A stretch of 64,000 nt of DNA from Sphingobacteriia bacterium 24-36-13. GTDB taxonomy: Bacteria > Bacteroidota > Bacteroidia > Chitinophagales > Chitinophagaceae. The stretch lies in assembly GCA_002281875.1 (NCBI GenBank), contig NCHN01000002.1, forward strand, positions 62,001-126,000. The letters are read 5' to 3'. The notes below the pieces were generated by a model that ran no database searches, had not been told where the DNA came from, and saw nothing but the letters and a program-made list of their open reading frames with translations. Below are positions 10,113 to 36,550 of this stretch, piece by piece; within the stretch, counting starts at the first letter, position 1, and every line of letters starts with the position of its first letter. The position numbers and the translations under genes were made by a program.

Positions 10113-12662
10113 TTAATCCAGCTTTGTGCTCCTCAGCCTTAATGAATTCAGGATAACGGATACCGAGCTAAAACTCATGGCCAGTGCCGCGATCATTGGC
10201 GAAAGTAGGATGCCAAAAAACGGATATAAAACCCCGGCTGCAATAGGAATTCCCAGAACATTATAACCCAGAGCGAAAAACAGGTTCTCTTTAATGTTCC
10301 GCATCACTTTGTGGCTCAATTGCCGTGCTTTTGCAATTCCATTAAGATCGCCTTTTACCAGCGTAATTGCCGCACTTTCAATAGCGACATCGGTTCCCGT
10401 ACCCATTGCAATACCAATATCCGCCTGTGACAACGCAGGGGCATCATTGATGCCATCGCCCGCCATTGCTACTTTCTTTCCTTCTGCCTGCAAATGTTTT
10501 ATCTCGTTCAGTTTATCTTCCGGTAGCATCCCAGCTTTGAAACCATCCAGATTTAAGGTTTCGCTTACTGCTCTTGCCGTATCTTCATTATCTCCGGTAA
10601 ACATCATTACCTCCAAGCCTTCTTCCTGAAGTTTTTTGATAGCGATAGCACTCGATGGCTTAATCTTATCAGAAATAACCACAAACCCAACGGCTTTACT
10701 TCCGACAGCTAAATAAGAAACCGTTTTTCCTTGTCTTTGCTCCGCTTTGATCTGTTCATGCAATTCAGAGGAAACTTCCGCTTCCACTTGTTCCATCAGT
10801 TTCTTGTTGCCCAAAGCCAGTTTCTTGCCTTCCAGCATCCCGATAACCCCTTTCCCGGTAATGGCTTCAAAATTTGAAATAGGCTGAACGTTTATATTTT
10901 TTTCTTGTCCATATCGAAGCGTTGCCTGTGCCAAAGGATGTTCACTGCTGCTGTTCAATGATATGATCCTTTGAAGGATATCATTTTCGTTTAGACCGGG
11001 ATTTGTGCTGATAACCTTTTCAACGGATGGCTTTCCTTCGGTAACCGTTCCCGTTTTATCAATGATTACGATATCAATGACATTCATTTTTTCCAAAGAT
11101 TCGGCATTTTTGATGAGCACACCGGATTTTGCGCCTTTTCCAACACCAACCATCACAGACATCGGGGTGGCAAGGCCAAGCGCACATGGGCAGGCAATGA
11201 TCAGCACTGCTATCGCATTTACAAATGCATACACGTAGGAAGGTTCAGGACCGTAAATCGCCCAGACAATAAAGGTGGCTATCGCTATCAGAACTACAAT
11301 AGGCACAAAGTAGCCGGAAATTTTATCGGCCAGCTTTTGAATGGGCGCTTTTGAACGGCTTGCAGAATTGACCATTTCAATAATCTGAGAAAGCAAGGTT
11401 TCCGAACCTACCTTTTCGGCAAGCATTGTGAAAGTTTTATTTCCGTTTATGGTACCAGAACTTACTTTGTCTCCTGGCTTTTTATCAACAGGGATTGGCT
11501 CACCGGAAATCATAGACTCATCAATCGTTACTTCTCCTATTTTAATACTTCCATCGACAGGTACTTTTTCACCTGGCTTCACACGCAGGAGATCTCCTTT
11601 TTGAATGTCATCGATGGCAACAAGCAATTCCTTTTCCCCTACGATCTTCGTAGCCTTATTGGGTGCCAGCTTAAGCAGTTCTTTAATGGCACTGTTCGTT
11701 TTTCCATGTGCTCTTGCCTCTAAGAGCTGTCCGAGCAAAACCAGTGTCAGGATAACAGTAGCTGCTTCAAAATACACGTAAACGGTTCCCATATGCGTTT
11801 TAAATTGGTCTGGAAAAACATTGGGAAACAATAAGGCAACAACACTGAACAACCAAGCCACACCAGCCCCGATGCCGATAAGCGTAAACATATTCAGCTT
11901 CCATGTAGCGATAGAGCGCCATGCCCGCTCAAAAAACATCCAGGTCGCATAAAATACCACAGGAATTGACAAAGCAAATTGCACCCAGTTCCAATATTGC
12001 AGATCCATGATTTTAAACAATGGATTATTCGGGATCATCTCCGACATGGAGATGATGAAAATGGGAATTGTAAAAACAGTGGCTATTTTAAATTTGCGTA
12101 AGAGCTTGCTATAAGTTTGATCCTCTTCCTCCGCATCAGCATCCATTGGCACCAGATCCATTCCACATATTGGGCAGGAACCCGGTTCATCCCGGATAAT
12201 CTCGGGATGCATTGGACAAGTATATTTTGTGGCTTTTTTTACTGATGGCTGTTGGACAAGGTCCATTCCACAAACCGGGCAGTTTCCCGGCTTATCGTAG
12301 GTTTTGTCACCTTCACAGTGCATTGGACAATAATATTTACCTCCACTGTTTGTAGTTAGAGGTTTCGAGACCATTGTTCCGTGATGAGGATCAGGATTTT
12401 GATGGGTTTCATGTGACTTCACATCATGATGGTTAGACGCATCTGAATGATGTTGATTTGACATCACAATTGTATAATTTCCCGTAGCGGATAATGCTTC
12501 CTGCAGCTTTTCGGTTGAAACATGCTTTTGCATGTTAATAGTAGCCTGTGGCGGCTCTAATGTAACTACCGCAGAAATTCCCTCTATGGCATTCAGTGCT
12601 TTTTCAACTTTTGTGCGGCATCCGTCGCAACTCATTCCGGTTATTTTATAGGTATGTTTCAT
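10113..12662 (-). CDS. copA: Cu(I)-exporting P1B-type ATPase
   Basis: An 849-residue copper pump. In order: an HMA domain with C12-x-x-C15, a His-rich linker (70-100), two heavy-metal-binding CPMH...CPxCGMDL modules (about 110-137 and 148-172), eight membrane helices, the actuator SGEP at 386-389, the metal site CPC at 491-493, the phosphorylation motif DKTGT at 535-539, and the hinge GDGINDAPAL. The CPC motif and the MAMSFSSVSVILNSLRL end identify a Cu(I) exporter. It moves cytosolic copper to the periplasm, where the adjacent multicopper oxidase can oxidize it. Confidence 0.96.
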   Translation of the reverse strand: MKHTYKITGMSCDGCRTKVEKALNAIEGISAVVTLEPPQATINMQKHVSTEKLQEALSATGNYTIVMSNQHHSDASNHHDVKSHETHQNPDPHHGTMVSKPLTTNSGGKYYCPMHCEGDKTYDKPGNCPVCGMDLVQQPSVKKATKYTCPMHPEIIRDEPGSCPICGMDLVPMDADAEEEDQTYSKLLRKFKIATVFTIPIFIISMSEMIPNNPLFKIMDLQYWNWVQFALSIPVVFYATWMFFERAWRSIATWKLNMFTLIGIGAGVAWLFSVVALLFPNVFPDQFKTHMGTVYVYFEAATVILTLVLLGQLLEARAHGKTNSAIKELLKLAPNKATKIVGEKELLVAIDDIQKGDLLRVKPGEKVPVDGSIKIGEVTIDESMISGEPIPVDKKPGDKVSSGTINGNKTFTMLAEKVGSETLLSQIIEMVNSASRSKAPIQKLADKISGYFVPIVVLIAIATFIVWAIYGPEPSYVYAFVNAIAVLIIACPCALGLATPMSVMVGVGKGAKSGVLIKNAESLEKMNVIDIVIIDKTGTVTEGKPSVEKVISTNPGLNENDILQRIISLNSSSEHPLAQATLRYGQEKNINVQPISNFEAITGKGVIGMLEGKKLALGNKKLMEQVEAEVSSELHEQIKAEQRQGKTVSYLAVGSKAVGFVVISDKIKPSSAIAIKKLQEEGLEVMMFTGDNEDTARAVSETLNLDGFKAGMLPEDKLNEIKHLQAEGKKVAMAGDGINDAPALSQADIGIAMGTGTDVAIESAAITLVKGDLNGIAKARQLSHKVMRNIKENLFFALGYNVLGIPIAAGVLYPFFGILLSPMIAALAMSFSSVSVILNSLRLRSTKLD

Positions 12663-12673
12663 GATGCTATCAA

Positions 12674-13033
12674 TTAATAAGTTAACGTAATCCCTCCTCC
12701 ATAACCCATATCACTGTCGTAATGTGTGGATAATGAGAAGTATTTGGTAACAATATATCGGAAGCCAGCCATGTATTCCTTATCGGTATTAGCCATAAAG
12801 TTCATTCTTAACCTGCTGGTTAGGGGAACATCTTCACGCATCAACTGAAAACGCAGCTTTCCCTTACTGTCCAGCCGTGCTTCAGCAGTGACCAGCATCG
12901 GAAGGATATATTGAACCCCTATCACAGCAGCTTTCCGGTTCTTTTGGTTGCTGACTTGCCCGAACAGATTGTTTTCTCTCTCATTGTTCATACTGTTGTA
13001 GTGATAATCAAATCCAATGAAGGAAACAGCCAT
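12674..13033 (-). pseudogene. CopB-like barrel tail separated from the multicopper oxidase by a frameshift
   Basis: This leftward frame (119 residues) continues the protein encoded upstream: the junction residues FIGFDYHYN follow naturally after GRYIGRMQWLFP of the oxidase. It contains alternating hydrophobic strands typical of a CopB-like outer-membrane barrel (VIGVQYILPMLVTAEARLD, LRMNFMANTDKEYMAGFRY) and ends in ITLTY, a terminal aromatic as in outer-membrane proteins. One missing base near 13019-13022 would restore a single protein of about 904 residues. Whether the break is real, a sequencing error or programmed cannot be decided from one sequence. Confidence 0.75.
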
Positions 13034-15387
13034 TGCATTCTGCCGATATACCGCCCGAAATAGGTTTCACTTTCATTGCCGTGATGTGCCTTTAAGCCAA
13101 GTCGCCATTCTGTTGAAAAGCGGTAGCGGGTATTAGCCAGCATAAATTCACCATCACTTCCGTTGCTTTCCAGTCCTATGGTCGCCATTGGATGAAATGC
13201 CCTGTCATCGGAATTTAACCCACGCTTAGCTACTTTGGGGTCCTTAATATCGGTTTTGTCAACCAGCGTATCCTGGTAGCTGAAAACCCTGCCCATTCCG
13301 CTCATCATGTGATATAGAATATGACAGTGGAAAAACCAGTCCCCGCCGGGTTCGGATGCAGCAAATTCGATGGTATCCCGTTCCATAGGCATAATGTCCA
13401 GCACATTTTTCATCGGGGCATTTTCGCCTTGTTCGTTCAGCACCCTGAAATCATGGCCATGAAGGTGCATAGGATGCCGCATCATGCTGTTATTGAACAT
13501 GATGATCCGTACATTTTCCCCTTTTTTGATCAGGATCTTGTCACTTTCAGAAACGGTTTTATTGTCCAATGACCATACATAACGGTTCATGTTGCCGGTA
13601 AGCTCGAACTTCAATTCCTTCCACGGCCCTTTAGGCAATGTTGTTTTCTTGGGATCACGGAGCATGTTGTAATTGAGGGTTACGATATCGGAGCTGGAGT
13701 TCTCCATCTCTGCCATGTTGTGCATGCCGCCATTCATCTGCATTTGATCTGCTTTTGCAGTATCAGCCGGATTTTCCGGGCCGGTTATTTCCGGGTACAT
13801 TACCGTATTCATATCCATAACCTGGTTCTGCATTTTCATACCTTCCATTTCGATCATGTTGCCTTGCATGTCCATCATGTCATTCATCATTTTCATTCCG
13901 GCAAAATATTTCAGTTTTGGCAACTTCTTAGCAGGTACTTTTTCTCCTTTTCCCAGCCACAGCGAAGCCGATTTAGTACGGTCTTCAGGTGTTACCAAAA
14001 ATTCGTAACTCTTATTATCAGGAATAGTCACCACTACATCGTATGTTTCAGATACAGCTATAATTAACCTGTCCACCTCTACAGGTTCAACATCATTACC
14101 GTCCGTAGCTACTACCGTTATTTTACCGCCAGAATAGGTAAGCCAGAAATAATCAGATGCACCGCCATTAGCTATACGTAATCGTACTTTGTCACCAGCC
14201 TTAAATTGTGGTTGCTCATTTTGGTTTTTTCCATTGATTAAAAATGCATCATAATACACATCGCTAACGTCCATTGCATTCATACGCTTCCATTCATTGT
14301 TAACTTTGGTTTTGAAATGACCTGTTCGGATTGCTTCGGCATAGCTTTGGGTAGTGCCTTTTTGTATGGCGAACCAATCAGTAGCGTTCTTTAGGCTGCG
14401 GTGAACTTCTTCGGGTTTCATATCCGTCCATTCACTTAATACTACCGGAATGGTAGGAATATCCCATTCTTTTCTTTTATTCATGATGAATGCACCGTAC
14501 ATACCGATCTGCTCCTGCAATTTACTATGGCTATGATACCAATGGGTGCCATGTTGGACAATCGGAAATTTATAGAGGTAAGTTTCCCCCGGTTTAATCG
14601 GCATTTGAGTTAAAAAGGGAACTCCATCCATCCGGTTGGGTAAAAATAATCCATGCCAATGCAGCGATGTTACTTCATCAAGATTATTATGCACATAAAT
14701 CAATGCCGTGTCGCCTTCTGTAAAAGTCAACGTAGGCATAGGGATTTGGCCGTTTACCGCAATAGCTCTTTTTGATTTTTTGCCATATGTTACCGTGGTA
14801 TCGGCTATGTATAAATCGTAACGCACTGTACGGGGAGGTGTACTGCTGGTAATGGTTTTTATGGGCCCTAAATTTGCCTTTGCCTGTTTGATATTTTCCA
14901 TATTAGGATTGTCATCTCCCATCTGCATTCCGGTCATGTCTTCCATATTGCCCGTCTTTTTAGCGTCCTCTTTCATTGGCATATCCATTCCATCATGCTT
15001 AGTAGGAGCTGTCTTGGGAGTTTCTTTTACCAGTTTCATTCCGCATTTAGGGCAATTGCCGGGTTTAGAAGCATGTATTTCAGGGTGCATTACACAGGTG
15101 TATGTTGCGGACTGCGCCTTTGCTGGCACCTTAGCAGGCATCTTCATTTTTGCCTCTTTTTGAGATACTGCTTTAGGGGCTGTAGCTTTAGGGTTTTCCT
15201 TAACCAGTTTCATTCCGCATTTAGGACAATTACCCGGCTTTGATGCATGAATTTCAGGATGCATTGGGCAGGTGTAGGTAACGGGCTGTTCTTTTTGCCC
15301 TGTAGGTGTGTTATGCCCTTGATGCTGAGCGAATGCTAATTGACCGAAACAAAGTATAAACACCACTATTAATATTCTCTTCATCAT
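12988..15387 (-). CDS. Periplasmic multicopper oxidase with metal-binding N-terminal repeats
   Basis: A 799-residue secreted copper oxidase (PcoA/CopA type). It has a signal peptide (about 1-20), two CPMH/CVMHPEIHASKPGNCPKCGMKL metal-binding repeats (about 40-62 and 98-120), three cupredoxin domains with copper ligands HWHG (243-246), HWYHSH (282-287), HPMHLHGH (638-645) and HCHILYHMMSGM (687-698), and a Met-rich loop (498-560) that would bind Cu(I). The last 60 residues begin a CopB-like barrel that goes out of frame after about residue 789. It oxidizes Cu(I) in the periplasm; the oxidase core is complete, but the C-terminal barrel is cut. Confidence 0.92.
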   Translation of the reverse strand: MMKRILIVVFILCFGQLAFAQHQGHNTPTGQKEQPVTYTCPMHPEIHASKPGNCPKCGMKLVKENPKATAPKAVSQKEAKMKMPAKVPAKAQSATYTCVMHPEIHASKPGNCPKCGMKLVKETPKTAPTKHDGMDMPMKEDAKKTGNMEDMTGMQMGDDNPNMENIKQAKANLGPIKTITSSTPPRTVRYDLYIADTTVTYGKKSKRAIAVNGQIPMPTLTFTEGDTALIYVHNNLDEVTSLHWHGLFLPNRMDGVPFLTQMPIKPGETYLYKFPIVQHGTHWYHSHSKLQEQIGMYGAFIMNKRKEWDIPTIPVVLSEWTDMKPEEVHRSLKNATDWFAIQKGTTQSYAEAIRTGHFKTKVNNEWKRMNAMDVSDVYYDAFLINGKNQNEQPQFKAGDKVRLRIANGGASDYFWLTYSGGKITVVATDGNDVEPVEVDRLIIAVSETYDVVVTIPDNKSYEFLVTPEDRTKSASLWLGKGEKVPAKKLPKLKYFAGMKMMNDMMDMQGNMIEMEGMKMQNQVMDMNTVMYPEITGPENPADTAKADQMQMNGGMHNMAEMENSSSDIVTLNYNMLRDPKKTTLPKGPWKELKFELTGNMNRYVWSLDNKTVSESDKILIKKGENVRIIMFNNSMMRHPMHLHGHDFRVLNEQGENAPMKNVLDIMPMERDTIEFAASEPGGDWFFHCHILYHMMSGMGRVFSYQDTLVDKTDIKDPKVAKRGLNSDDRAFHPMATIGLESNGSDGEFMLANTRYRFSTEWRLGLKAHHGNESETYFGRYIGRMQWLFPSLDLIITTTV

Positions 15388-15852
15388 TTAATTTTTTAGT
15401 AAAAGACTGTCTCTCGTTTTTTTAACCCAATTCAGTAAAAGGGTTTTATCTTCTTTTGAAAGTTTCGCGTTTTTATGGATTAAGGTATAAGAAGGCAAAG
15501 GCATTGTTCCATCTTCTATGCTGCTGGCGATGGATTTTAATTTGCTTTGCCGCCTTCGTTTGGAATAATTCCCAAATTCATCGAAATTCAATTCTGCCTT
15601 CCCCTTTTTTATATGCGAGGCCAGCCACCAGCCACCCGGTTGGACGTTTACATACCAAGGGTAATTGGTGTTATTGCTGTGGCAATCATAACATGAAGTT
15701 TTTAAAACCGCTTCTACGTTCTCCGGCACCATGTAGAGCCTTGTTATGTCCGCATCCAAAACCTGTCGGTTTTGATTTCGGGCAGGTTGTACAAACTGAA
15801 TGGCAATGATTATAACCGACAAGACTAACAATCCTATTTTAATCCGGCTCAT
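15388..15852 (-). CDS. Heme-binding-domain protein (c-type, CYDCHS)
   Basis: A 154-residue exported or membrane-anchored protein: an N-terminal hydrophobic segment (about 5-20), then a single heme c site C-Y-D-C-H-S at about residues 54-59, followed by NNTNYPWYVNVQP and an MPLPSYTLIHKNAKLS segment, matching the haem-binding domain family (PF14376 type). It ends exactly where the multicopper oxidase begins (15388/15387), so both are in one operon. It may accept electrons from copper oxidation, which is an inference from position. Confidence 0.85.
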   Translation of the reverse strand: MSRIKIGLLVLSVIIIAIQFVQPARNQNRQVLDADITRLYMVPENVEAVLKTSCYDCHSNNTNYPWYVNVQPGGWWLASHIKKGKAELNFDEFGNYSKRRRQSKLKSIASSIEDGTMPLPSYTLIHKNAKLSKEDKTLLLNWVKKTRDSLLLKN

Positions 15853-15860
15853 TGTGGTTA

Positions 15861-16439
15861 TTAATTTAATTCTTCTTTTACCGTACCGCAGGTAGGCATA
15901 GATTTTCCTAAATAAGGATTTTCGATGTCTTTAGTCTCGCTCAACCAATTAGCCCCTTTATTTTTATTGTACATAGGGCAATGGTCAACATACAATTTCT
16001 GTCCTGCACCAACTACTTTGACCAGTTCGTACGTTTCCTGACTTAATGTTTCAAAGTGCTCACGCTGATGTTCGATGTTACCTGCATTGGCCCCGATATG
16101 CTCTGCATGTTCTTTGGCATCATCTACTATATCATTATAGACTTTGGCCTGGTCAGCGGTTAAAGAAGCTTTATCAAAACTGTCAAATGCTTTTACCATT
16201 TCATTTCCGGCATCGGCAGCATCTTTATCGTTATCTTTTGTTAAAGCGTTTTTGATTTTCAAATAACTGTTTAATAAGTCTTTTATTGATGACCCTGTTT
16301 CTACAGATCCATCCTTTGTATCTAATCCCTCTGCCGTTGCAGGGGTAGTATTGTCAGCCGTTTGGTTTTTAGGTGTACCATTATTGCAGGCAGCGAAAAA
16401 CATCGTAGAAAGAACTATGCTAAAAATTAGTGTTTTCAT
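15861..16439 (-). CDS. DUF3347 lipoprotein
   Basis: A 192-residue lipoprotein with lipobox FFAAC (C18) and a DUF3347 domain (about 50-190): helical LLNSYLKIKNALTKDND, the H-rich EHAEHIGANAGNIEHQREHF, then VDHCPMYNKNKGANWLS and the closing IENPYLGKSMPTCGTVKEEL. The CPM...C pair and the histidines suit copper binding in the periplasm. It is one of two DUF3347 proteins in tandem, and lies eight bases upstream of the heme-binding gene. DUF3347 is also found on CusB-type adaptor proteins, which fits copper handling. Confidence 0.85.
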   Translation of the reverse strand: MKTLIFSIVLSTMFFAACNNGTPKNQTADNTTPATAEGLDTKDGSVETGSSIKDLLNSYLKIKNALTKDNDKDAADAGNEMVKAFDSFDKASLTADQAKVYNDIVDDAKEHAEHIGANAGNIEHQREHFETLSQETYELVKVVGAGQKLYVDHCPMYNKNKGANWLSETKDIENPYLGKSMPTCGTVKEELN

Positions 16440-16608
16440 TATTTTAATTTTAAACTGTGAATTGAGAAGTGTTAAATTACCGGCAGCATTTTTTTATAAA
16501 AATGCTCTTAAAAATCCTTTTAAGGACTGCGATTATCTTAGCCATAATTGAAAAATTAAAGTGTAAAAACCATAGTCGCAGAACAACTATGGCACAAACA
16601 AATTACTG

Positions 16609-17088
16609 TTACTTTAAAGTTTCAACGACTTTCCCGCAGGTAAGCATGGAGCTACCGAAATAAGGATTTTTAATTGCTGTGCTGCTGCTGAGCCAGCTTG
16701 CCTTTTTCATGGGACAATAAGCCTTGTAGATAGGCTCTGTACTAAGCTCTGTTGTTTTGGCCAAAGCAAACATATGGTCTGAGAAACCGGTAAAATATTC
16801 CCGCTGTTTTTTGATGTCTTTTGTTTTTACAATATCACCTGCATCTTTTAACAAAGCGGTACGGCTTGCTTCGGGAAGGATTTTGTCGTCAATCGAGTTA
16901 GCAGTTTTTACAAACTCAGAAGCCTTTGCTGCCGCTGTACTGGCATTGCCGCTCACTAAAGCATCCTTAATAGCATAGTATTGAGTGAGTAATTGAGAGG
17001 ACTGGGTATTATTTGTATTGTTTTGGGCAAAGCTATATTGACCAAATGCAGTTGCTATGAAAGCAACTAAGAAAAATATCTTTTTCAT
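16609..17088 (-). CDS. DUF3347 periplasmic protein
   Basis: A 159-residue protein with a Sec signal peptide (MKKIFFLVAFIATAFGQYSF, cleavage near AQ) and a complete DUF3347 domain: LLTQYYAIKDALVSGN at the start, AYCPMKKASWLSS and AIKNPYFGSSMLTCGKVVETL at the end. It is a soluble counterpart of the lipoprotein at 15861-16439; both share the CPM and TCG cysteines. The 169-nt gap to its neighbour has no gene. It is likely a periplasmic copper-binding protein. Confidence 0.85.
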   Translation of the reverse strand: MKKIFFLVAFIATAFGQYSFAQNNTNNTQSSQLLTQYYAIKDALVSGNASTAAAKASEFVKTANSIDDKILPEASRTALLKDAGDIVKTKDIKKQREYFTGFSDHMFALAKTTELSTEPIYKAYCPMKKASWLSSSTAIKNPYFGSSMLTCGKVVETLK

Positions 17089-17169
17089 CTTTATTGATTT
17101 TAATGTTTTAAGCTAAATAATTACGGGCATGGATGTGCAACACCCATACCACAGGCAAAAAACATTAAA

Positions 17170-17643
17170 TCAAATCTGGAAACTCTGAATAGCTACTCGT
17201 ATGTCCGATATAGGTGGATGATGGGTTCGGACAAAAAATTTATTGTTGGGTATATGCGAATTTGATGCAAAAACATCAAAACGATAAAAAGAGGAAACAA
17301 ATGCTGTGAAGAATACAGGGTGGATACTAAAATCGAAAGATTGCGGTGTTAGCTTATCAACCTTTGCAAATTTTGCTGCCTCGTCTGTGCAACAGTTGTC
17401 TTTAGTCTTTTTCGATGAATGGTGATCCTTAGCCAAACCATTCTGTTCGTCATGTAAATGTGCTTTAGAGTGCTGATGAGCAGGCGCATCCTTATGAGCC
17501 AAGACGGTTTTTTCTTCCTGATGATGTGAACCATTAAAACCCATATCTAACCCAACAGAGCAAGCAAAACCTACAACCGTATTTAAAGAAAATACGATCA
17601 ATAGAAAAACTGCTTTTAGTTGTATGGATGGGTTTTTTTTCAT
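17170..17643 (-). CDS. HYC_CC_PP family His/Cys-rich protein
   Basis: A 157-residue exported protein: hydrophobic N-terminus (about 10-30) with FACSVG, a His-rich stretch (SHHQEEK, HKDAPAHQHSKAHLHDE, DHHSSKK), a vicinal NCC at about 85-87, and a C-terminal THHPPISDIRV. These are the features behind the HYC_CC_PP family name, small Bacteroidota proteins seen near copper genes. The His runs and the CC suggest copper or zinc binding at the envelope. It is read in the same direction as the other copper genes; no enzymatic domain is present. Confidence 0.75.
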   Translation of the reverse strand: MKKNPSIQLKAVFLLIVFSLNTVVGFACSVGLDMGFNGSHHQEEKTVLAHKDAPAHQHSKAHLHDEQNGLAKDHHSSKKTKDNCCTDEAAKFAKVDKLTPQSFDFSIHPVFFTAFVSSFYRFDVFASNSHIPNNKFFVRTHHPPISDIRVAIQSFQI

Positions 17644-17752
17644 TAATCAATACAAAAATAAAACTATTTATACAAATACCTGCATCTTTAGCAACAAAGG
17701 TACTTTTTTAAGTAGTCAGGAACTTACACAATTACGGCAAATTGTTATATAA

Positions 17753-17780
17753 TTCCTGCCTGGAGTCTTCCAGGCAGGAA
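17753..17780 (-). terminator. Hairpin downstream of the Csp gene
   Basis: An 11-bp perfect stem, TTCCTGCCTGG (17753-17763) and CCAGGCAGGAA (17770-17780), with a 6-nt loop lies eight bases beyond the end of the leftward four-helix copper protein gene. There is no long T-run, so it may be a weak terminator or an mRNA-stabilizing 3' hairpin separating it from the next copper gene. Confidence 0.6.
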
Positions 17781-17787
17781 AATTAAA

Positions 17788-18132
17788 TTAAGCTGCTGTA
17801 GCCATTTGTTCACAGGCGGCAGCACATTTGCGGCAAGCTTCTGCACATTCTTTGCAATGCTCCATACCCATTTGCGCATGTTTTTCGCATTCTTCGGCGC
17901 AGGCATTACAGACATCTGCACAAACCCGGCAAAGATGATTACTGTACTCACTCCCTAAACTCATTACCTCTGCTGCTGAACGGCAGATTGCTGCGCATTC
18001 CAGATCAAGTTGAATACATTTCGATAGCATTTTTACGTCTTCTTCTTTAAGACATTCGGTAGCACAATGGCTACAAGTTACTGCACATGCTACACAGACA
18101 TCGATGCAATCTTTGAATTGTTGATGTGACAT
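17788..18132 (-). CDS. Four-helix-bundle copper-storage protein (Csp type)
   Basis: A 114-residue, Cys-rich, all-helical protein with repeated CxxxC spacing (DVCVACAVTCSHCATEC, LDLECAAICRSA, CRVCADVCNACAEECEKH, CKECAEACRKCAAACEQ). This is the pattern of Csp/DUF326 proteins, which store many Cu(I) ions inside a four-helix bundle. There is no signal peptide, so it resembles cytosolic Csp3. It lies within the copper locus and would buffer cytosolic Cu(I) before export by the P-type ATPase. Confidence 0.9.
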   Translation of the reverse strand: MSHQQFKDCIDVCVACAVTCSHCATECLKEEDVKMLSKCIQLDLECAAICRSAAEVMSLGSEYSNHLCRVCADVCNACAEECEKHAQMGMEHCKECAEACRKCAAACEQMATAA

Positions 18133-18169
18133 AATGTTACTTTTTTAGTTAGATGAATTATTGTTATTG

Positions 18170-18784
18170 TTATTTTCCGTCTGATAAAATCCATTGCTGC
18201 AATTCTTTGATCTCTTGATCCTGCGCTTCAATGATATTCTTTGCCATTGTTTTCATGGCATCCTCATGACCGTAGATTAATTCCAGTCTTGCATTTTCAA
18301 TAGCACTTTGATGATGCTGTATCATGAGCATGGCAAAATCATGATCTATGTCTCCATTGATGATCTGGAGGTCAGTAACTTTTCCTGACCTTTCCATATT
18401 AGCCATTTGCTGCATACTGAATTCAGGGACATTTCCGTGTGGGGAATGGGAATTTAAGAAAGTGGTTAACTGTTCGATTTCTGCTGTTTGAGCGTCAATA
18501 ATCATTTGTGCCATTTCCTTCATTTGTGCATCATCGCCACTTTTCAGTTCGGCATTAGACATGTCTATAGCTCCCTGGTGATGCATTCGCATCATCATCG
18601 CAAAATCATTATCAGGGTCATTTGTTTTTTGCATACCCATCATTGTATCCATCATATTATGCATAATGGACATCATCTGGTTATCATCATGTTTTTGGAT
18701 TTTGATGGTATCATCATCTTTACTGCAAGAAGCAACTGAAATTGTAAAGAGAGAGATTGCTAAAAGTTTAATTGTATTTTTCAT
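18170..18784 (-). CDS. DUF305 lipoprotein with two DUF305 repeats
   Basis: A 204-residue lipoprotein with lipobox SVASC (C20) followed by an Asp-rich segment and two tandem DUF305 units. The first has FAMMMRMHHQGAIDMSNAEL, the second FAMLMIQHHQSAIENARLEL; each HHQxAI motif carries the paired histidines. A Met-rich stretch (MMSIMHNMMDTMMGMQ) precedes unit 1 and suits Cu(I) binding. It is the second DUF305 gene in the copper locus, the other being a membrane protein at 9561-10055. Confidence 0.88.
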   Translation of the reverse strand: MKNTIKLLAISLFTISVASCSKDDDTIKIQKHDDNQMMSIMHNMMDTMMGMQKTNDPDNDFAMMMRMHHQGAIDMSNAELKSGDDAQMKEMAQMIIDAQTAEIEQLTTFLNSHSPHGNVPEFSMQQMANMERSGKVTDLQIINGDIDHDFAMLMIQHHQSAIENARLELIYGHEDAMKTMAKNIIEAQDQEIKELQQWILSDGK

Positions 18785-21085: not shown

Positions 21086-21556
21086 ATGGAAAGCGTAATG
21101 AGTGTTTCAGAAATGTACAATGTTGCAGAAATTGAACTGGTTTACAAAACTAAAATTAAAGCATCGCAACGTCCCAAAGTAACATCTTCCAAAGAAGTAT
21201 ATAATGTTTTGCTGCAAAGCTGGGATGAAAATAAAATCGAATTTGTGGAGCAGTTTAAAATATTGCTATTAAACAGATGTGGAAGAATTTTAGGCATAGT
21301 TGAGGTTTCAACCGGTGGCATCGCAGGGACTGTTGCTGACCCGAAAGTGATTTTCTCAGCGGCCTTAAAAGCGAATGCAAGTTCTCTGATCCTGGCACAT
21401 AATCATCCTTCTGGAAATATCAAACCAAGTGAAGCTGATAAGTACTTGACCAGAAAGATAAAGGAAGTAGGCAAGCTACTGGACATTTCGGTACTTGATC
21501 ATATCATTGTAACTACAGAAGGATATTGCTCATTAGCAGATGAAGGGGAGATGTAA
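21086..21556 (+). CDS. RadC-like JAB/MPN-domain protein of mobile elements
   Basis: A 156-residue protein with a complete JAMM metal site: HNHPSG at 105-110 (H105, H107, S109) and D118, plus E55 in the preceding strand. It lacks the N-terminal helix-hairpin-helix part of chromosomal RadC, as is usual for the short copies on Bacteroidota conjugative elements. JAMM proteins hydrolyse isopeptide or related bonds. The PRTRC cassette on this same element lacks its usual JAB member, so a functional link is possible but unproven. Confidence 0.9.
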   Translation: MESVMSVSEMYNVAEIELVYKTKIKASQRPKVTSSKEVYNVLLQSWDENKIEFVEQFKILLLNRCGRILGIVEVSTGGIAGTVADPKVIFSAALKANASSLILAHNHPSGNIKPSEADKYLTRKIKEVGKLLDISVLDHIIVTTEGYCSLADEGEM

Positions 21557-28372: not shown

Positions 28373-29302
28373 TTATCCATTATTAGGGAAAAGTACTTTT
28401 TTCAGTTTCTCTGCGGCCTGTTGATGTTTGGTTTCATCCATTCTGGAAAGGTTCAATAACTTCCATTGTACCGAAGGAAGCCTGGAAACTTCTTCCATTT
28501 TGGGTAGTCCCAATAAATCCCACTGTGGCCGTCTTTCTTTGAAGGATTGCAAAAAATTCCGTTCGTCATCGGTCATGTTTTGATGGATAATGGCGATTAA
28601 ATCTTCCCGTGTTTGTTCCAATTCCTCTACCGGAATATCTACTTCTGCCATCTGTGTGAATTCCGTTGCGTAAATCTCGCGGATGTCTTTGCGGTGCGGA
28701 GCCAACAATTCGGACATAGGACGTTGGTGGCTGATTAAAAATACCAGAAATGTCTTCCGTAAATCTTCTGTAAAGCCTTCATTTTCCAGCAGGAATTTTA
28801 CGTCAAAGAGGTCGCGTGGGTGCTGGCGGTCTAAGGCCGCACAGATTTTGCCTGCATATAAATCCGGCAGTGAAGCCACTTGTATTTCCGCATAGCCAAA
28901 TTCCTTTTCCACTAATTCGTTCACTTCCATGCGCACTTCGGGAAATACCGTTCCCCTGATCACAGGGGACAGCTCTACTTTGACACGTATGTCCTCTACC
29001 TGGAGTATCAATCGGAGTGCATTGCTCTGTTCATGCGTATTCTGTATATGGATGCCAGGAATAGTCTTCCTGATCAGTTCGCTCAGCCGGGACAAGGCCG
29101 CCCGGATATTGACCAGCGCTTCCTCACGGTCTTCTGAAGGCAGGTATAACAGGTCAATATCCACCGAAAGACGTGGCAATGACCGGTAAAATAAATTGAT
29201 GGCCGTTCCTCCTTTCAGTGCAAAGCATTTCTCGGTGTCTAATAACGGAAGTATGCGCACAAGTAATTGCACCTGACGGTAATATATGCTGTCTCTCTTC
29301 AT
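28373..29302 (-). CDS. abiEii: AbiEii-type nucleotidyltransferase toxin
   Basis: A 309-residue type IV toxin. The nucleotidyltransferase core is visible as FALKGGTAINLFYR followed by the metal-binding DID in LSVDIDLLYL, with a third acidic site likely in the VKVELSPVIRG strand. The DLYAGKICAALDRQHPRDLFDVK motif is characteristic of AbiEii/AbiGii toxins. It modifies RNA (tRNA for studied members) and stops growth, which gives abortive infection. It is encoded three bases after its antitoxin gene. It may also stabilize the mobile element. Confidence 0.93.
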   Translation of the reverse strand: MKRDSIYYRQVQLLVRILPLLDTEKCFALKGGTAINLFYRSLPRLSVDIDLLYLPSEDREEALVNIRAALSRLSELIRKTIPGIHIQNTHEQSNALRLILQVEDIRVKVELSPVIRGTVFPEVRMEVNELVEKEFGYAEIQVASLPDLYAGKICAALDRQHPRDLFDVKFLLENEGFTEDLRKTFLVFLISHQRPMSELLAPHRKDIREIYATEFTQMAEVDIPVEELEQTREDLIAIIHQNMTDDERNFLQSFKERRPQWDLLGLPKMEEVSRLPSVQWKLLNLSRMDETKHQQAAEKLKKVLFPNNG

Positions 29303-29305
29303 GTT

Positions 29306-30094
29306 TTAATGTTGGAAATCTTTAGGTACGGTTATTTTATAGGTTTTGTCCAGTTCGCCACCCTTCACAATCATTCGGTTGCCAGACCCCAGGTTTATAC
29401 TTTCCTGTTTTAGTTTGCTATACCAGGCATAATTGTGTTTAGAACCGAACCAGAGGAAAAGCCGTTTTACCTTTACATTGGTGCAATGTTCCAAGAGTTT
29501 TTGCAAGGTCCGGGGCGATAACGTAGTCATACCCTGTATCAATTGATCGGCATGCTCAAACGATATTTTTTCGGGCACTTCATTCAACATTTCAAGACAA
29601 GCTTTTTCCGGGCAGGATATTTTCAGTTCTGCCATTCCTTCTTTCCAGGGTACAGTGGCTGTATAATCATTAGCTATTGCCGGTGTCATATCTTCAAAAA
29701 GTTCCTTTCTTGAATGGCGGATAATGACCGTGTTTTCTGATACCTCATTTACCCAGGCGGGCAATTTGTCGTTGCCATAAACCTGTATTATCTCTTTCTT
29801 TGACGTTGGTAAATAATGCGAAAAGCCTTTTAATTCCAGTGCCGACAGTCCGCCCACGACAAAATCCGTCTTCATAATGAATTGCAGGACATGGACAATA
29901 CTTTGCCAGGATAGCCGCACACTTCCCCTGGCATAAATGCCTTTCTGCAAGAGTTTTAATTGTTCGCTCTTGATCAGGTTGTCAATTGCATGTTTATTCA
30001 GCCCTGCCTGCTCCATCAGCCATTTCCTGGTAGCGATCACTCCTTCAGGAAGAAGCTGTTCCAGCATTTTACGTCTCTCAGGATTGAGTGCCAT
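29306..30094 (-). CDS. abiEi: AbiEi-type antitoxin and autorepressor
   Basis: A 262-residue antitoxin with an N-terminal winged helix-turn-helix (KWLMEQAGLNKHAIDNLIKSEQLKLLQKGIY split over residues about 24-54) and a C-terminal domain that neutralizes the toxin (LFLWFGSKHNYAWYSKL). AbiEi proteins bind inverted repeats in their own promoter. Two such repeats lie just upstream here (30114-30133 and 30173-30192). It is the first gene of the leftward toxin-antitoxin operon. Confident by length, order and motifs. Confidence 0.92.
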   Translation of the reverse strand: MALNPERRKMLEQLLPEGVIATRKWLMEQAGLNKHAIDNLIKSEQLKLLQKGIYARGSVRLSWQSIVHVLQFIMKTDFVVGGLSALELKGFSHYLPTSKKEIIQVYGNDKLPAWVNEVSENTVIIRHSRKELFEDMTPAIANDYTATVPWKEGMAELKISCPEKACLEMLNEVPEKISFEHADQLIQGMTTLSPRTLQKLLEHCTNVKVKRLFLWFGSKHNYAWYSKLKQESINLGSGNRMIVKGGELDKTYKITVPKDFQH

Positions 30095-30671: not shown

Positions 30672-31082
30672 ATGAACATTATCGGAAGACTGACAAGGGA
30701 TGCGGAAATCAGCACCCTGCCGAGCGACAAACAAGTGGTTAACTTTTCTATTGCGGTCAATGATGGCTACCGCAACAAACAGGGCGAACAGGTGGAACTA
30801 ACCGAATACTTCAACTGCGCCTACTGGATTTCAACGAACGTGGCAAAGGCACTGACCAAAGGTACATTGGTGGAGCTTAGGGGGCGGGTAAGTGCAAGGG
30901 CATGGATTGGGGGCGATGGAGAAGCGCATGCAGCACTCAATTTCCATACTTCACAAATTAAACTGTACGGAGGTGGCAGGAGAACGGAAACCGTAGCAGA
31001 CGATAGGGAAGACAATACCGTGGCATCCGCTAACAAACGCAAAAGCGGTAATACAGCAGAAAAAGACGACCTGCCTTTCTAA
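30672..31082 (+). CDS. ssb: Single-stranded DNA-binding protein
   Basis: A 136-residue SSB with an OB fold over about 1-105 (MNIIGRLTRDAEI, NFSIAVNDGYRN, YWISTNVAKALTKGTLVELRGRVSARAW) and the acidic interaction tip EKDDLPF at the C-terminus. It coats transferred single-stranded DNA of the element. It opens the second rightward block (ssb, DUF932, PRTRC genes). The linker is short and polar, as in plasmid-encoded SSBs. Confidence 0.95.
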   Translation: MNIIGRLTRDAEISTLPSDKQVVNFSIAVNDGYRNKQGEQVELTEYFNCAYWISTNVAKALTKGTLVELRGRVSARAWIGGDGEAHAALNFHTSQIKLYGGGRRTETVADDREDNTVASANKRKSGNTAEKDDLPF

Positions 31083-31122: not shown

Positions 31123-32196
31123 ATGGCACATAATCTCAATTTCAACGAACGTACAGGCAAATACAGTTTCTTTAGCGTACAACACAAGGCATGGCATAAT
31201 TTAGGGCAGGTAGTAGAGCAATATCCCACCAGTGCCGAAGCAGTTAAATGCGCAGGGCTTGACTTCGAGGTCATCAAATCACCGCTGTACACGCATGGTA
31301 CAGGGGTAACCATTGGCAACGATGGTGAAATAAAAGAGGGTGGTAATATTTTACTGCCCGAAAACTTCGCCACCATGCGCACCGATACCAATCAGGTTTT
31401 CGGGGTAGTGGGCAAGGATTACCAAATTGTACAAAATGCAGATGCCTTCGCTTTTTTCGATGCGATTGTAGGCGGTGGCGAAGGCATACTGTATGAAACC
31501 GCAGGGGCATTGGGTAATGGGGAACGCATATTTATAACCGCCAAACTACCCGATTATATTCGTGTGGGCAATGGTGATGACGTAACCGAAAAATACATTT
31601 TCCTGACCACCTCTCACGATGGAACAGGCAGCATAACCGCAGCCTTTACACCCATAAGGATAGTTTGCCAGAACACGCTGAATGCATCGCTTCGTAATAT
31701 GTCCAACGTGGTGCGCATTCGTCATACATCAGGTGCAAAACAGCGTTTGGAAGAGGCGCACAAAGTAATGGGACTGGCTAACCAGTTAAGTACCAAACTG
31801 GAAGAAATATTCAACCAATGGGCAAAGGTACGTATCACTGATACGGAAGTGAAAAAGCTTATTCAACTGGCACTATGCCCGAATAAGGAAACATTTGCAG
31901 CACTTAAAAAAGGTGCAGAAGATGAATTGTCTACCGTGTTCAAAAACACCGTTAACGATGCCTTTGCCTATGCAATGATAGCGGATACACAACAAATGGA
32001 TACTACCAAAGGAACAGTGTTCGGAGCGTATAACGGCATCACGGGCTATTATCAGAATGTCCGCAATTACAAAGATGATGAAGCCAAACTGCAATCTATC
32101 GTGATGGGCGGTACGGCACAACTAAAAGCACAGTCAGCCTTTAACCTCTGCAATGAATTTGCTATGAACGGGGCTGACGCATTTGCACTGAACTAA
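31123..32196 (+). CDS. DUF932 (phage/plasmid-like) protein
   Basis: A 357-residue DUF932 protein: AWHNLGQVVEQYPTSAEAV near the N-terminus, then YQIVQNADAFAFFDAIVGGG, KLPDYIRVGNGDDVTEKYIF and TPIRIVCQNTLNASL are the typical family blocks. Family members occur on phages and conjugative elements and their function is unresolved; a role in DNA replication or protection has been guessed from context. It lies 40 nt after ssb. The gene appears complete. Confidence 0.9.
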   Translation: MAHNLNFNERTGKYSFFSVQHKAWHNLGQVVEQYPTSAEAVKCAGLDFEVIKSPLYTHGTGVTIGNDGEIKEGGNILLPENFATMRTDTNQVFGVVGKDYQIVQNADAFAFFDAIVGGGEGILYETAGALGNGERIFITAKLPDYIRVGNGDDVTEKYIFLTTSHDGTGSITAAFTPIRIVCQNTLNASLRNMSNVVRIRHTSGAKQRLEEAHKVMGLANQLSTKLEEIFNQWAKVRITDTEVKKLIQLALCPNKETFAALKKGAEDELSTVFKNTVNDAFAYAMIADTQQMDTTKGTVFGAYNGITGYYQNVRNYKDDEAKLQSIVMGGTAQLKAQSAFNLCNEFAMNGADAFALN

Positions 32197-32938: not shown

Positions 32939-33583
32939 ATGGAAACGACAAATTTTTTTAGCGAAGTAGCGGCATTGAATATTACAGGCGACCTGCAATT
33001 GACTATACGCAAAGGAGCAGAAAACAATTGGATAGTATCGGTTATGCTCAATAATGAACAATGTGGAGATGATGCAAGAAAACTAATTCCGCCCCTTAAT
33101 CTAAAGGGAACGGTAAACGAATTGGACGAGGGATTTTTTGAAAGGATAACCACGCCTTTGCAATCCGCTTCAGGCTTATTAGATAATATGGAAGCCTTTA
33201 TGAAGCAATTGGAAGAAGCCAAAACACAATCGGCTATGGAAAAGGAGAAAGCCGACAAAGAAAAAAAGGCTAAGGAAGAAAAGGAAAAGAAATTTAAGGA
33301 AGCTATGGCTAAAGTGGACGAACTGGAGAAAGAGGGCAATTACAGGGATGCCTGGATGAAAGTACCCGACCCTGCACAATTCCCCGAACAGGCAGAAGTA
33401 ATACGCAAGCGCAAGACTGCATTGTCAGCCAAGTTTGCGCCCGACTTGTTCGGCGCACCTGAAACAGGGGTAGAGACAACAGAACCACAGGAAGAAAATA
33501 CGCTTTTCCATGAAGGCCCCGACAATGAGAAAAATCTCGATGAAGTGGAGGATAATTGGGAAGACGATAGCGAAACAGAATAA
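32939..33583 (+). CDS. PRTRC system protein E
   Basis: A 214-residue protein: an N-terminal globular part (FFSEVAALNITGDLQLTIRK, then PPLNLKGTVNELDEGFFERIT), a long charged coiled coil (about 85-130, with EKEKADKEKKAKEEKEKK), a short helical segment, and a very acidic tail (EVEDNWEDDSETE). The N-terminal part matches PRTRC system protein E. PRTRC stands for ParB-related, ThiF-related cassette. It opens the cassette here; its biochemical role is unknown. Confidence 0.85.
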   Translation: METTNFFSEVAALNITGDLQLTIRKGAENNWIVSVMLNNEQCGDDARKLIPPLNLKGTVNELDEGFFERITTPLQSASGLLDNMEAFMKQLEEAKTQSAMEKEKADKEKKAKEEKEKKFKEAMAKVDELEKEGNYRDAWMKVPDPAQFPEQAEVIRKRKTALSAKFAPDLFGAPETGVETTEPQEENTLFHEGPDNEKNLDEVEDNWEDDSETE

Positions 33584-33609
33584 TTTACCAACATCAAAAA
33601 ACAACAACC

Positions 33610-33828
33610 ATGTTATTAGCAACACAATTAGAACGAGTGTTCTTACTGAAAGATAAAGGGCAGGAAATCAAATTGACCGACCCCGAACCCAAATGGAGTG
33701 TTGAGGCGGTATTGAATTTTTATGCCAATACATATCCCATATTAACAACGGCAAAAGTATCTGCACCTGTTATTCGTGATGATACCGTACAGTACAGATT
33801 TGAGAGCGTAATGGGAACAAAAGGTTAA
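33610..33828 (+). CDS. PRTRC system protein C, small possibly ubiquitin-like protein
   Basis: A 72-residue protein (ERVFLLKDKGQEIKLTDPEP, then WSVEAVLNFYANTYPILTTAKV) matching PRTRC system protein C. Its strands and central helix fit a small beta-grasp-like fold, and it ends in MGTKG with a C-terminal glycine, as a modifier activated by an E1 enzyme would. It lies in the same cassette as an E2-like and an E1-like gene. That it is conjugated to other proteins is inference; no experimental result is known to me. Confidence 0.85.
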   Translation: MLLATQLERVFLLKDKGQEIKLTDPEPKWSVEAVLNFYANTYPILTTAKVSAPVIRDDTVQYRFESVMGTKG

Positions 33829-33843
33829 TCAAAATTAAAAGAA

Positions 33844-35025
33844 ATGAACGATGCAACGCAATATTATATCCGGGATTATCCGCAAACCGCAACAGCCAAA
33901 ACAACGGGAACTGCACCAACAGTTGGGCGAGTTTGCCAATTGGATGCAAAGACCCAAAGAGGCAAACGAAATCCGAAAGGACAAACGGAAGTCCGTACCC
34001 CTTTCGATGTTGCCAATAATTTTCTAAAGTCTACGTTCCTGCCAAAACTAAAAACGGCGCATTCTGCACAGGCTTGTACAGAAAATGAAAAAACGGAAAG
34101 GGATTTTTACCATTCCCTTTCCCTACTGGCGGAAGATTACGGATTTAAGCCAATGCAGACAAAAAGCTATGGTTATCCGTACAATATCAGTTTGGCATTA
34201 TGGGATACACAGGAGAAGTTAAAACAAATAGTTTACAATTGGAACAGTTTACAATTTGTACAGGACAGGAAAAAAGCCTTTTTTATCAGCGAAGAACGGT
34301 ACAGCGCAGGGGCTACGCTTTATTACATCCCCGTTATACCACTCTTTGAAATGCTGAATGACCCAATGCGTAAAAAGACCGCCCAATTGCTTGTGTCAGT
34401 TTGCAGTTACCTGTACCATATTGTGAGTATTCCGTATTACCGGCAGGAAAACAGCTACCTCTATTGGATGTACGAAATGCTAACCGATTGGGTGGAGCAA
34501 GACGAGGAAACCAGCGAAACAGAACTATATAAAAATGAGTTACGGCAAGCCGAATGGGTTGGTGAGCGTGTCGAACAAAAACTGTTTAACCGTACCAATT
34601 TAAGTTTTTTTGAACAGCGTGTAAAGATATTTAAGCCGACAGATGAGTTTGATAAGGAATGTTTGCAGTTAGCTTGCGATGCGCTTGCACTTTACGTGGA
34701 ATATCCTCATACGAATATCTTTCGTAATGCTCCTAAAACTGATGAGGGCCCTGACGATGAGTGCGAAGACTATGACCGGGAAACTATTGGTATGGAAAAG
34801 TACATATCCTTCATGGCGAATGGAAAAGGCTGGCTATATGAAAGCCTTTCGGATAGTATTAACAACGAGTTTAACGAATATGGCAATCTGGAAGAACCGA
34901 CCATCCGCAAATGTTTTGACGGAAACCCGATAACACGTAACAACCTCGATTTTGAAGCCCGACTGTTTACTTTATTGGAAGATATATGCTACTTACTAAA
35001 CAACTATAAAGCGACAAGACGATGA
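33844..35025 (+). CDS. PRTRC-cassette protein of unknown function
   Basis: A 393-residue soluble protein between PRTRC C and B. Central parts are helical and aromatic-rich (YYIPVIPLFEMLNDP, QLLVSVCSYLYHIVSIPYY, SYLYWMYEMLTDWV), with an acidic segment (DEGPDDECEDYDRE) near residue 300. No catalytic motif is visible. Its stop overlaps the PRTRC-B start by four bases (ATGA at 35022-35025), so it is translated together with the cassette; it occupies the slot often named PRTRC F, though I cannot confirm homology. A second frame open over its first 58 codons makes the exact N-terminus less certain. Confidence 0.7.
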   Translation: MNDATQYYIRDYPQTATAKTTGTAPTVGRVCQLDAKTQRGKRNPKGQTEVRTPFDVANNFLKSTFLPKLKTAHSAQACTENEKTERDFYHSLSLLAEDYGFKPMQTKSYGYPYNISLALWDTQEKLKQIVYNWNSLQFVQDRKKAFFISEERYSAGATLYYIPVIPLFEMLNDPMRKKTAQLLVSVCSYLYHIVSIPYYRQENSYLYWMYEMLTDWVEQDEETSETELYKNELRQAEWVGERVEQKLFNRTNLSFFEQRVKIFKPTDEFDKECLQLACDALALYVEYPHTNIFRNAPKTDEGPDDECEDYDRETIGMEKYISFMANGKGWLYESLSDSINNEFNEYGNLEEPTIRKCFDGNPITRNNLDFEARLFTLLEDICYLLNNYKATRR

Positions 35026-35744
35026 ATAATACAACAGACATAACCAATGATTTTGGAATGCTTTACCATCCCAAATCGGCTTTGGTGTTCTATGAAACCA
35101 AAGGCACAAACACGGATATGTATGTAGAGCATTTTGACATGGACAGAAACGGCAACCCAATCAATGCCCACCCTTTGACCGTGAGGGAAGCACAGCTATT
35201 GGCAAAGGCATTGAATACAGGAAAGGAAAAGAACAAAGCTTTTTTAAAACCAAGGGGAATTTTGCCAACCAATATACTGGTTATCAATCCAAGCGACAAC
35301 GGTACGGTATTATGGTACACCAAAGCACAGCAACGTCCGTTATTCTTTGTCAAAGATTTGGAAATACTCAATGGGAAGGCATATGTACCGCCCATGATTT
35401 GGTTTGCCAGTAAAAACAGCATTTTTGTTTTTGCCCTTAGTTCAGACAGGCGACCACATGAAAAGACGCCGTTGTTCCATGCTCCATTTTTCAATGTATA
35501 TGAAAACGGAAATGTATGCATGGGAACAGTAAATGTGAATATCAAAAAATCGACATCGCTGGAAGAATTTATCGAAGCATGGGAAAACTATTTTTTTAAC
35601 AGCTATTTCAGCCATCTGATGCAGAACCACAACCCGGTTAAAGGGAATTGTGTAAGCCTTTGGAAAGAGCTTATTAAAACAGGCAATGCCTTTCCTAAAG
35701 AGGTTTTGAAAAAGAATAACAGGACACTTAAAAACTTATTATGA
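35022..35744 (+). CDS. PRTRC system protein B, E2-like
   Basis: A 240-residue protein matching PRTRC system protein B. Near residues 154-168 it carries HAPFFNVYENGNVCMG, which resembles the HPN...G-x-x-C active-site layout of ubiquitin E2 enzymes: a His-x-Pro, an Asn and a Cys eight to ten residues later. This is consistent with the E2-like assignment of the family made by comparative genomics. It overlaps the previous gene and the ThiF gene by four bases each, so translation is coupled. Confidence 0.88.
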   Translation: MNNTTDITNDFGMLYHPKSALVFYETKGTNTDMYVEHFDMDRNGNPINAHPLTVREAQLLAKALNTGKEKNKAFLKPRGILPTNILVINPSDNGTVLWYTKAQQRPLFFVKDLEILNGKAYVPPMIWFASKNSIFVFALSSDRRPHEKTPLFHAPFFNVYENGNVCMGTVNVNIKKSTSLEEFIEAWENYFFNSYFSHLMQNHNPVKGNCVSLWKELIKTGNAFPKEVLKKNNRTLKNLL

Positions 35745-36550
35745 TGAACACGGAAAAAACGAAAGTCCATTTTACGGATAACTCCCTGATAAATGCCACC
35801 AATCCAATACAAGTAAACGTTTTTGGTGCAGGTGGTACAGGTTCAAAGGTTTTGACTGCTTTAATTGAGATGGAGCACAGTCTGGTCGAATTGGGACACG
35901 CAGGATTATCCGTTCGTCTTTGGGATGATGATAGGGTAACTGAACCAAATTTAGGTAGACAACGTTTTGCAGCATGTGAAATAGGACTGTACAAGTCCTT
36001 AGCCTTGATAAACCGTTCCAATAGATGGGAAGGGACAAACTGGAAAGCCGAAACAGTAAAATTCGGAAAAGACCATTTGGGGAGATTGCCCCAATACGCA
36101 CCTGCAAGCATTTATATCTCTTGCGTAGACAGCGTACAAGCAAGGTTTGAAATTGCAGGGATTTTAAAAGCGTTGAGCAATAGCAGGAATTACGGTAATG
36201 AACCTAAGTATTGGCTTGATTTCGGCAACAGCCAGCATACAGGACAGGTTATATTATCTACTATTGGAAAGATAAGCCAACCCAAATCTGAAATGTACGA
36301 AACGGTGGCAAGCCTGCCATTTGTTACAGATGAATTTGGCGATTTATTGAAACACTCCGAAGCAACGGACGACACGCCAAGTTGCAGTTTAGCAGAAGCA
36401 CTGGAAAAACAGGACTTGTATATTAATTCCTCACTGACCCAAATGGGTTGCTCCTTATTGTGGAGCTTATTCCGTAACGGATTGACCCAATATAGGGGCT
36501 TTTTCCACAACCTTAAGGACTTTAATACCCACCCAATTAAGGTCGCCTGA
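35741..36550 (+). CDS. PRTRC system ThiF-family E1-like enzyme
   Basis: A 269-residue ThiF/E1-like adenylating protein. The nucleotide loop is VFGAGGTGSK (G29-x-G31-G32-x-G34), the acidic ribose contact is in LWDDDRVTEPNLGRQRF with the conserved Arg and Asn, and the crossover region begins ISCVDSVQARFEI, whose Cys could accept the modifier. It should adenylate the C-terminus of a small protein, likely PRTRC C. It is the last gene of the cassette and is followed by a structured gene-free 329-nt stretch at the end of the element. Confidence 0.92.
   Translation: MMNTEKTKVHFTDNSLINATNPIQVNVFGAGGTGSKVLTALIEMEHSLVELGHAGLSVRLWDDDRVTEPNLGRQRFAACEIGLYKSLALINRSNRWEGTNWKAETVKFGKDHLGRLPQYAPASIYISCVDSVQARFEIAGILKALSNSRNYGNEPKYWLDFGNSQHTGQVILSTIGKISQPKSEMYETVASLPFVTDEFGDLLKHSEATDDTPSCSLAEALEKQDLYINSSLTQMGCSLLWSLFRNGLTQYRGFFHNLKDFNTHPIKVA

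Follow-up and report, generated by a model that had tools for sequence, protein, structure and literature searches.

A predicted ubiquitin-like conjugation cassette of the PRTRC type in Bacteroidota, and the association of JAB with tailed modifiers in its relatives

Ubiquitin-like conjugation was predicted for operon type 6d by Iyer, Burroughs and Aravind in 2006 (Table 1 of PMC1779556), whose list of members includes Bacteroides thetaiotaomicron and whose proteins are like the PRTRC families of NCBIfam. Here we describe a PRTRC cassette in a 64,000-nucleotide stretch of contig NCHN01000002.1 from Sphingobacteriia bacterium 24-36-13 (Chitinophagaceae); this whole stretch is referred to below as the window. 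Like the operons of type 6d as that table and its accompanying sections present them, the cassette encodes a ubiquitin-like protein ending in glycine (PRTRC-C), an E2-like protein (PRTRC-B) with a cysteine and the downstream histidine described there for the PRTRC-B-type family, a ThiF enzyme, and a protein in the position of the alpha-helical component; unlike them, the window and the Bacteroidota relatives tested lack the PRTRC-A JAB protein and the PRTRC ParB. An initial annotation, made from the letters alone, had noted a comparative-genomic link of these proteins to ubiquitin-like pathways, and it is the 2006 paper that holds this prediction. The conjugation-set reading is therefore already published, and what is new is the absence of JAB and ParB as a lineage trait and a link between JAB and a C-terminal tail on C. 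We consider it reasonably probable, from sequence comparisons, that the cassette is a ubiquitin-like conjugation set borne by a mobile element, in whose relatives JAB matures C and in whose Bacteroidota branch this step is absent. Our literature searches found no experiment on a PRTRC system.

In CBASS (cyclic oligonucleotide-based anti-phage signalling system) the E2 and E1 form one protein, Cap2, and JAB is found in Cap3. Bacterial E1, E2-like and JAB parts of the same general kind are described for CBASS and for the Bil operon in PMC10097602 and PMC11354881, the latter reporting that BilC trims BilA before conjugation. Unlike the PRTRC cassette studied here, the Bil operon, in the same account, includes a JAB and has two ubiquitin-like domains in BilA. 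In Caldiarchaeum, according to PMC6043591, the JAMM protease CsRpn11 trims a ubiquitin precursor by cleavage behind its C-terminal glycines, and conjugates are substrates too; this is like the maturation we propose for JAB-bearing PRTRC relatives, although the operon and the protein families differ and the window has no cassette-encoded JAMM step.

JAB and the form of PRTRC-C

The presence of JAB goes with the form of PRTRC-C, an association that is new here. Profiles for C, B, ThiF and JAB were run against the six-frame open reading frames (ORFs) of 265 loci (L032–L131 and L145–L309). Of these loci 248 have both C and ThiF, and removal of identical C cores left 180 distinct C proteins (48 from genomes, 115 from viral contigs and 17 from plasmid or phage records). 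Sixty of the 69 C proteins encoded with JAB have residues directly after the Lys-Gly pair with which the window's protein ends, from 1 to 100 in number (median 66), and 53 of these tails are at least 15 aa long. A true tail is present in none of the 111 C proteins encoded without JAB, after reading of five cases flagged by length: L176 and L182 end GTKA, L197 and L200 end RLG or QLG, and the alignment of L230, which ends VNG, had stopped early. The corresponding counts before removal of identical cores are 83/92 and 0/156. All 69 JAB proteins lie between C and ThiF and have the JAMM motif, and in 100 of the 110 JAB-free loci having B, B and ThiF are no more than 150 bp apart, so that there is no room for JAB between them in those 100 loci. 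Annotated records likewise give C its tail, as in the 132-aa protein of a Xanthomonas plasmid and the 129-aa gene product of phage BgVeeders33.

The tails begin at a sharply defined position. Thr-Lys-Gly is identical in all 53 long-tailed rows, variability jumps at the position directly after Lys-Gly, and entropy is at least 2.7 bits at every one of the 12 positions that follow this pair. Single-linkage clustering (E ≤ 1e-3) divides the 53 tails into 12 clusters, with sizes of 24, 12, 5 and 4 and eight of 1. Since tails go with JAB, JAB probably matures a precursor of C, and the branch to which the window belongs probably encodes C in its already mature form.

Several related observations may be recorded here. 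Burkholderia phage BgVeeders33 (L129) carries C with JAB and ThiF. Among IMG/VR viral contigs, 56 of 60 distinct C proteins found with JAB and ThiF are tailed, and the tails fall into several unrelated families; those of viral-contig C proteins may be released peptides with a function of their own. The GTKA ends of L176 and L182, in place of GTKG, offer a possible test of the need for the terminal glycine.

The lack of JAB and ParB is a lineage trait of the Bacteroidota cassettes. PRTRC-A (TIGR03735) is absent from every one of the 26 Bacteroidota genomes that bear the cassette, among them that of the window, whereas the same search was positive in three of seven plasmid or phage records. PRTRC ParB exceeds its cut-off in 0/23 Bacteroidota genomes, compared with 4/6 plasmid or phage records; each of the 23 does have a ParB-like match that falls short of the cut-off, mostly of about 300 aa with two of 609 and 622 aa. 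The initial annotation had reported both members missing, which holds for the cassette and, with respect to JAB, for the window's genome under three models (Prok-JAB, PRTRC_A and JAB1/MPN), though the window does encode a RadC-like JAB-fold protein with a JAMM-type motif at 21086–21556, and a second RadC match lies elsewhere in the same genome. Generic Prok-JAB matches occur in five of the 26 genomes, four over the cut-off, and are located on other contigs (G253) or 74 kb (G277), 23 kb (G095) and more than 1.7 Mb (G261) from the cassette; in G296 the coordinates of one match exceed the length of the contig that bears the cassette, and a second has no assigned place. Two of these cassette-bearing genomes contain a second, different pair of ThiF-like and Prok-JAB genes (G095:C1:1504038-1505137 and G277:C3:45409-46329). 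JAB is also absent from the inspected plasmid loci of Pseudomonas, Vibrio, Aeromonas and Shewanella (L126, L131, L230, L231 and L233–L236). Section 14 of PMC1779556 states that E1-like genes unfused to JAB always had JAB in the immediately adjacent gene, and the JAB-free PRTRC loci described here differ in this respect.

Conserved residues and predicted folds

The genes named in the initial annotation were all recovered as ORFs with family matches at 32939–36550, including the 72-aa protein ending MGTKG, which belongs to the Prok_Ub family. All 35 C proteins in the alignment, of which six come from plasmids or a phage, share K71 and G72 without exception. Among 87 C proteins of the related loci, not deduplicated, the C terminus is GTKG in 86 and GVKG in one. 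An AlphaFold model of C (predicted local distance difference test score 86) has the order strand-strand-helix-short helix-three strands, as in a beta-grasp, with a low-confidence tail; the Foldseek matches are weak, and by title 28 of the 50 listed (of 664) are ubiquitin or ubiquitin-like domains. The structural check proposed at the outset for C alone thus gave a beta-grasp-like order with weak matches only.

In an alignment of 24 ThiF proteins the GxGGxG loop, D62, N70, R73, K85, D130 and S214-C215-S216 are invariant, which bears out the earlier identification of the loop and a candidate cysteine; we take D62, N70, R73, K85 and D130 to be E1 adenylation residues and the cysteine to be catalytic. 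A ThiF profile matches solved E1 enzymes in the PDB, with Cap2 best (3.4e-7) and UBA6 and ThiF also present.

In classical E2 enzymes the Asn of the His-Pro-Asn (HPN) motif precedes the catalytic Cys by eight residues. Each of the 26 aligned B proteins likewise has an Asn eight residues and a Gly three residues ahead of the invariant Cys, and N158, G163, C166, G168 and H198 are invariant. The His of the HAPFFN stretch pointed out earlier is not conserved and varies among the aligned proteins (His, Tyr, Cys, Leu, Glu, Phe or Gln), and the HPN position, two residues before N158, is F156 in the window, with no conserved His there in the 26-protein alignment. Against the TIGR03737 cut-off of 131.45 bits, B scored 131.1 in the search of window proteins and 132.3 in the genome search.

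PRTRC-E begins with an N-terminal domain, continues with a charged stretch rich in Lys and Glu, and is acidic at its end. The model of the 393-aa protein is mostly helical, with ordered parts at about 75–295 and 313–386; comparison by hhalign with 12 F-position proteins from plasmids and a phage gave 0.2% probability.

Gene order and element context

Relatives of the cassette were collected as 92 ThiF-selected loci, not deduplicated, of which 12 come from genomes of the window's phylum and 80 are titled Bacteroidota; gene order was counted in the 82 with at least 6 kb upstream. The complete order SSB-DUF932-E-C-F-B-ThiF is kept on a single strand in 75 of the 82, and the arrangement is therefore not due to chance. 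E was found in 80/82 and the 393-aa protein in 82/82, some as partial matches only. Median identity to the window is highest for C (84.7%, the best of the seven proteins), followed by DUF932 (77.6%), ThiF (75.1%), B (71.4%), SSB (62.5%), the 393-aa protein (61.1%) and E (59.9%). The best match among the 80 is in 'Bacteroidetes bacterium 46-16', with 93% ThiF identity. The window's genome has a single PRTRC-B match and a single PRTRC-ThiF over the cut-off, which is exceeded in 10 of 296 genomes of the phylum, and tblastn with the window's ThiF gives matches in 362 PLSDB records. Two of the 20 plasmid or phage loci inspected (L127 and L128) have a ThiF relative without C or B by profiles.

Table 1. 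Features of the PRTRC cassette and its conserved upstream partners in the window
Feature	Positions	Strand	Evidence
SSB (single-stranded DNA-binding protein), conserved upstream partner	30672..31082	+	PF00436 5.2e-18; in 78/82 relatives
DUF932 / TIGR03299 phage- and plasmid-like protein, conserved upstream partner	31123..32196	+	PF06067 1.1e-69; in 76/82 relatives
PRTRC-E, 214 aa	32939..33583	+	TIGR03741 52 bits (cut-off 37.95); PF19556 4.8e-74
PRTRC-C, ubiquitin-like, 72 aa, tailless	33610..33828	+	TIGR03738 57.5 bits (cut-off 45.95); PF14454 Prok_Ub 2.1e-27
PRTRC-C Lys71-Gly72 codons, proposed activated end	33820..33825	+	Invariant in alignment
393-aa protein in PRTRC-F position	33844..35025	+	No family match
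PRTRC-B, E2-like, 240 aa	35022..35744	+	PF14460 Prok-E2_D 6e-37; TIGR03737
PRTRC-B E2-like active-site stretch, N158...G163..C166	35493..35519	+	Invariant in 26/26
PRTRC-B downstream His198	35613..35615	+	Invariant in 26/26
PRTRC ThiF, E1-like adenylating enzyme, 269 aa	35741..36550	+	TIGR03736 230.9 bits (cut-off 144.75)
ThiF GxGGxG nucleotide loop, residues 29-34	35825..35842	+	G29, G31, G32, G34 invariant in 24/24
ThiF candidate catalytic Cys215 (motif PSCS)	36383..36385	+	S214-C215-S216 invariant in 24/24

The ATGA overlaps by which the set had been said to be joined are present between the 393-aa gene and B (35022–35025) and between B and ThiF (35741–35744); C takes no part in them, being flanked by gaps of 26 bp (from E) and 15 bp (to the 393-aa gene), and the 393-aa ORF separates it from B. 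The DUF932 protein also matches phrog_1221 (1.8e-74), a phrog of unknown function. Farther upstream of SSB and DUF932 the window contains primase-, relaxase- and type IV coupling protein-like genes, an AbiE pair and metal-resistance genes, which makes it probable that a conjugative or mobilizable element carries the cassette. The AbiEi/AbiEii pair (28373–30094, minus strand, about 0.6 kb upstream of SSB) is recognised by Pfam and PADLOC (1.5e-83 and 4.8e-119) and is also present in the closest relative, L044. The metal-resistance block (7373–18784, minus strand) encodes a MerT/HMA-like protein, a P-type ATPase with heavy-metal-binding domains, a multicopper oxidase, and DUF3347 and DUF305 proteins.

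Alternative explanations and a proposed mechanism

The tails could be an extra part gained by one clade independently of JAB, since 67 of the 69 JAB-bearing rows form a single clade. We regard this as unlikely: the 12 tail clusters show no detectable similarity to one another and all start right after the same Lys-Gly, the two JAB-bearing rows outside the clade (L206 and L228) are tailed, L244 and L307, which lack JAB but fall within the clade, are tailless, and there is no tail in any of the 111 JAB-free rows. On an unrooted FastTree phylogeny of 179 ThiF proteins the minimum number of changes is five for JAB and seven for the tail; five tail changes map to JAB-bearing branches, two coincide with changes in JAB (L206 and L228) and none falls on the JAB-free branches, 65% of the total tree length (p ~0.0007 under equal rates). 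A paired test of JAB and tail on this tree had too few pairs. It is also very improbable that the RadC-like protein of the window stands in for PRTRC-A as a deconjugase. Its JAMM-type motif, its strand, which is that of the cassette, and its proximity, within a few kb, to the primase and relaxase genes of the element are all in favour, but it has no homologue in the 80 related loci whose upstream flank exceeds 9 kb (most of these flanks being shorter than its distance of ~14 kb) or in ten stretches reaching ~31 kb upstream in nine genomes, and RadC matches occur in eight of 14 control genomes.

Other alternatives concern the chemistry and its use. PRTRC ThiF is related to ThiF and MoeB, and could place a thiocarboxylate on C, which would then, like ThiS, donate sulfur to a small molecule, DNA or tRNA, B not being an E2. 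Phosphoadenosine phosphosulfate (PAPS) reductase family genes near ThiF in three of 20 annotated plasmid or phage loci (L131, L231 and L232) fit this, but tblastn with two of these PAPS-reductase-like proteins gave no match in the 92 related loci, B has Asn, Gly and Cys at E2 spacing throughout, and JAB beside C better fits conjugation with maturation, as argued in section 16 of PMC1779556; sulfur transfer is thus improbable. The PAPS-reductase-like (PP-loop) genes lie within ~2 kb of ThiF on those three plasmids and, judged by eye from the sequence, on viral contig L190. Alternatively, the same conjugation chemistry could be carried as cargo for anti-phage defence, in the manner of CBASS Cap2/Cap3 or the Bil operon. 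Of solved proteins, Cap2 is the best match to ThiF, other bacterial sets of E1, E2 and ubiquitin-like protein act in defence in the account of PMC10097602, and the AbiE pair, of phage-defence or toxin-antitoxin type, lies just upstream. A defence role nevertheless seems rather unlikely: it is unsupported by the PADLOC library, which matched ThiF only marginally (to E1-E2, E 0.005) and gave no match to C, B or the 393-aa protein at E 0.01, the neighbours in 75/82 loci are SSB and DUF932, and a phage carries a related set.

We therefore return to a conjugation set with JAB-mediated maturation in relatives. The initial annotation had C pass from ThiF to B, and the invariant terminal Gly, the E1 residues and Cys, the E2-like Asn, Gly and Cys and the beta-grasp-like, weakly matched model agree with this; the missing HPN His of B does not. 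In this mechanism ThiF would adenylate the C-terminal Gly of PRTRC-C and then hold C on Cys215, and B would take C on Cys166 and hand it to a target, possibly assisted by E and the 393-aa protein. In the JAB-bearing relatives C would usually be a precursor that PRTRC-A cuts after the invariant Lys-Gly. Maturation by PRTRC-A is the simplest account by analogy with CsRpn11 acting on archaeal ubiquitin and BilC on BilA, in the accounts cited above, and maturation by JAB was suggested in general terms in section 16 of PMC1779556. Two further observations count against this view: the single clade limits the independence of the association, and nine JAB-bearing cassettes encode a tailless C (L130, L226, L227, L229, L232, L266, L269, L299 and L306). 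The latter suggests that JAB has another task too, such as removing C from targets. The window's branch would have lost, or never had, the maturation step; its C is encoded without a tail and would therefore need no maturation, and the cassette may have no means of its own to reverse tagging. As a guess, prompted by the usual SSB-DUF932 neighbours, the set could serve the element's own establishment or transfer.

A broader reading, which we offer tentatively as possible, is that there are two regimes. In phages and proteobacterial plasmids that have JAB, the modifier would mostly be a precursor from which JAB releases the modifier itself and a tail drawn from many interchangeable ones, and these tails may have their own activity; on the conjugative elements of Bacteroidota the modifier would be born active with no cassette protease, and tagging would either be irreversible or limit itself. 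This would make it a minimal system working in one direction, distributed across the phylum by elements that encode SSB and DUF932 as well.

Relatives of the cassette are widespread, and cassettes with JAB and a tail or with neither form a natural contrast. The association of JAB with tails can be put as a concrete prediction for biochemistry, namely cleavage after Lys-Gly. If confirmed, a conjugation set that lacks its own deconjugase would be a useful minimal system for considering the origins of E1/E2 conjugation and how tagging is restrained.

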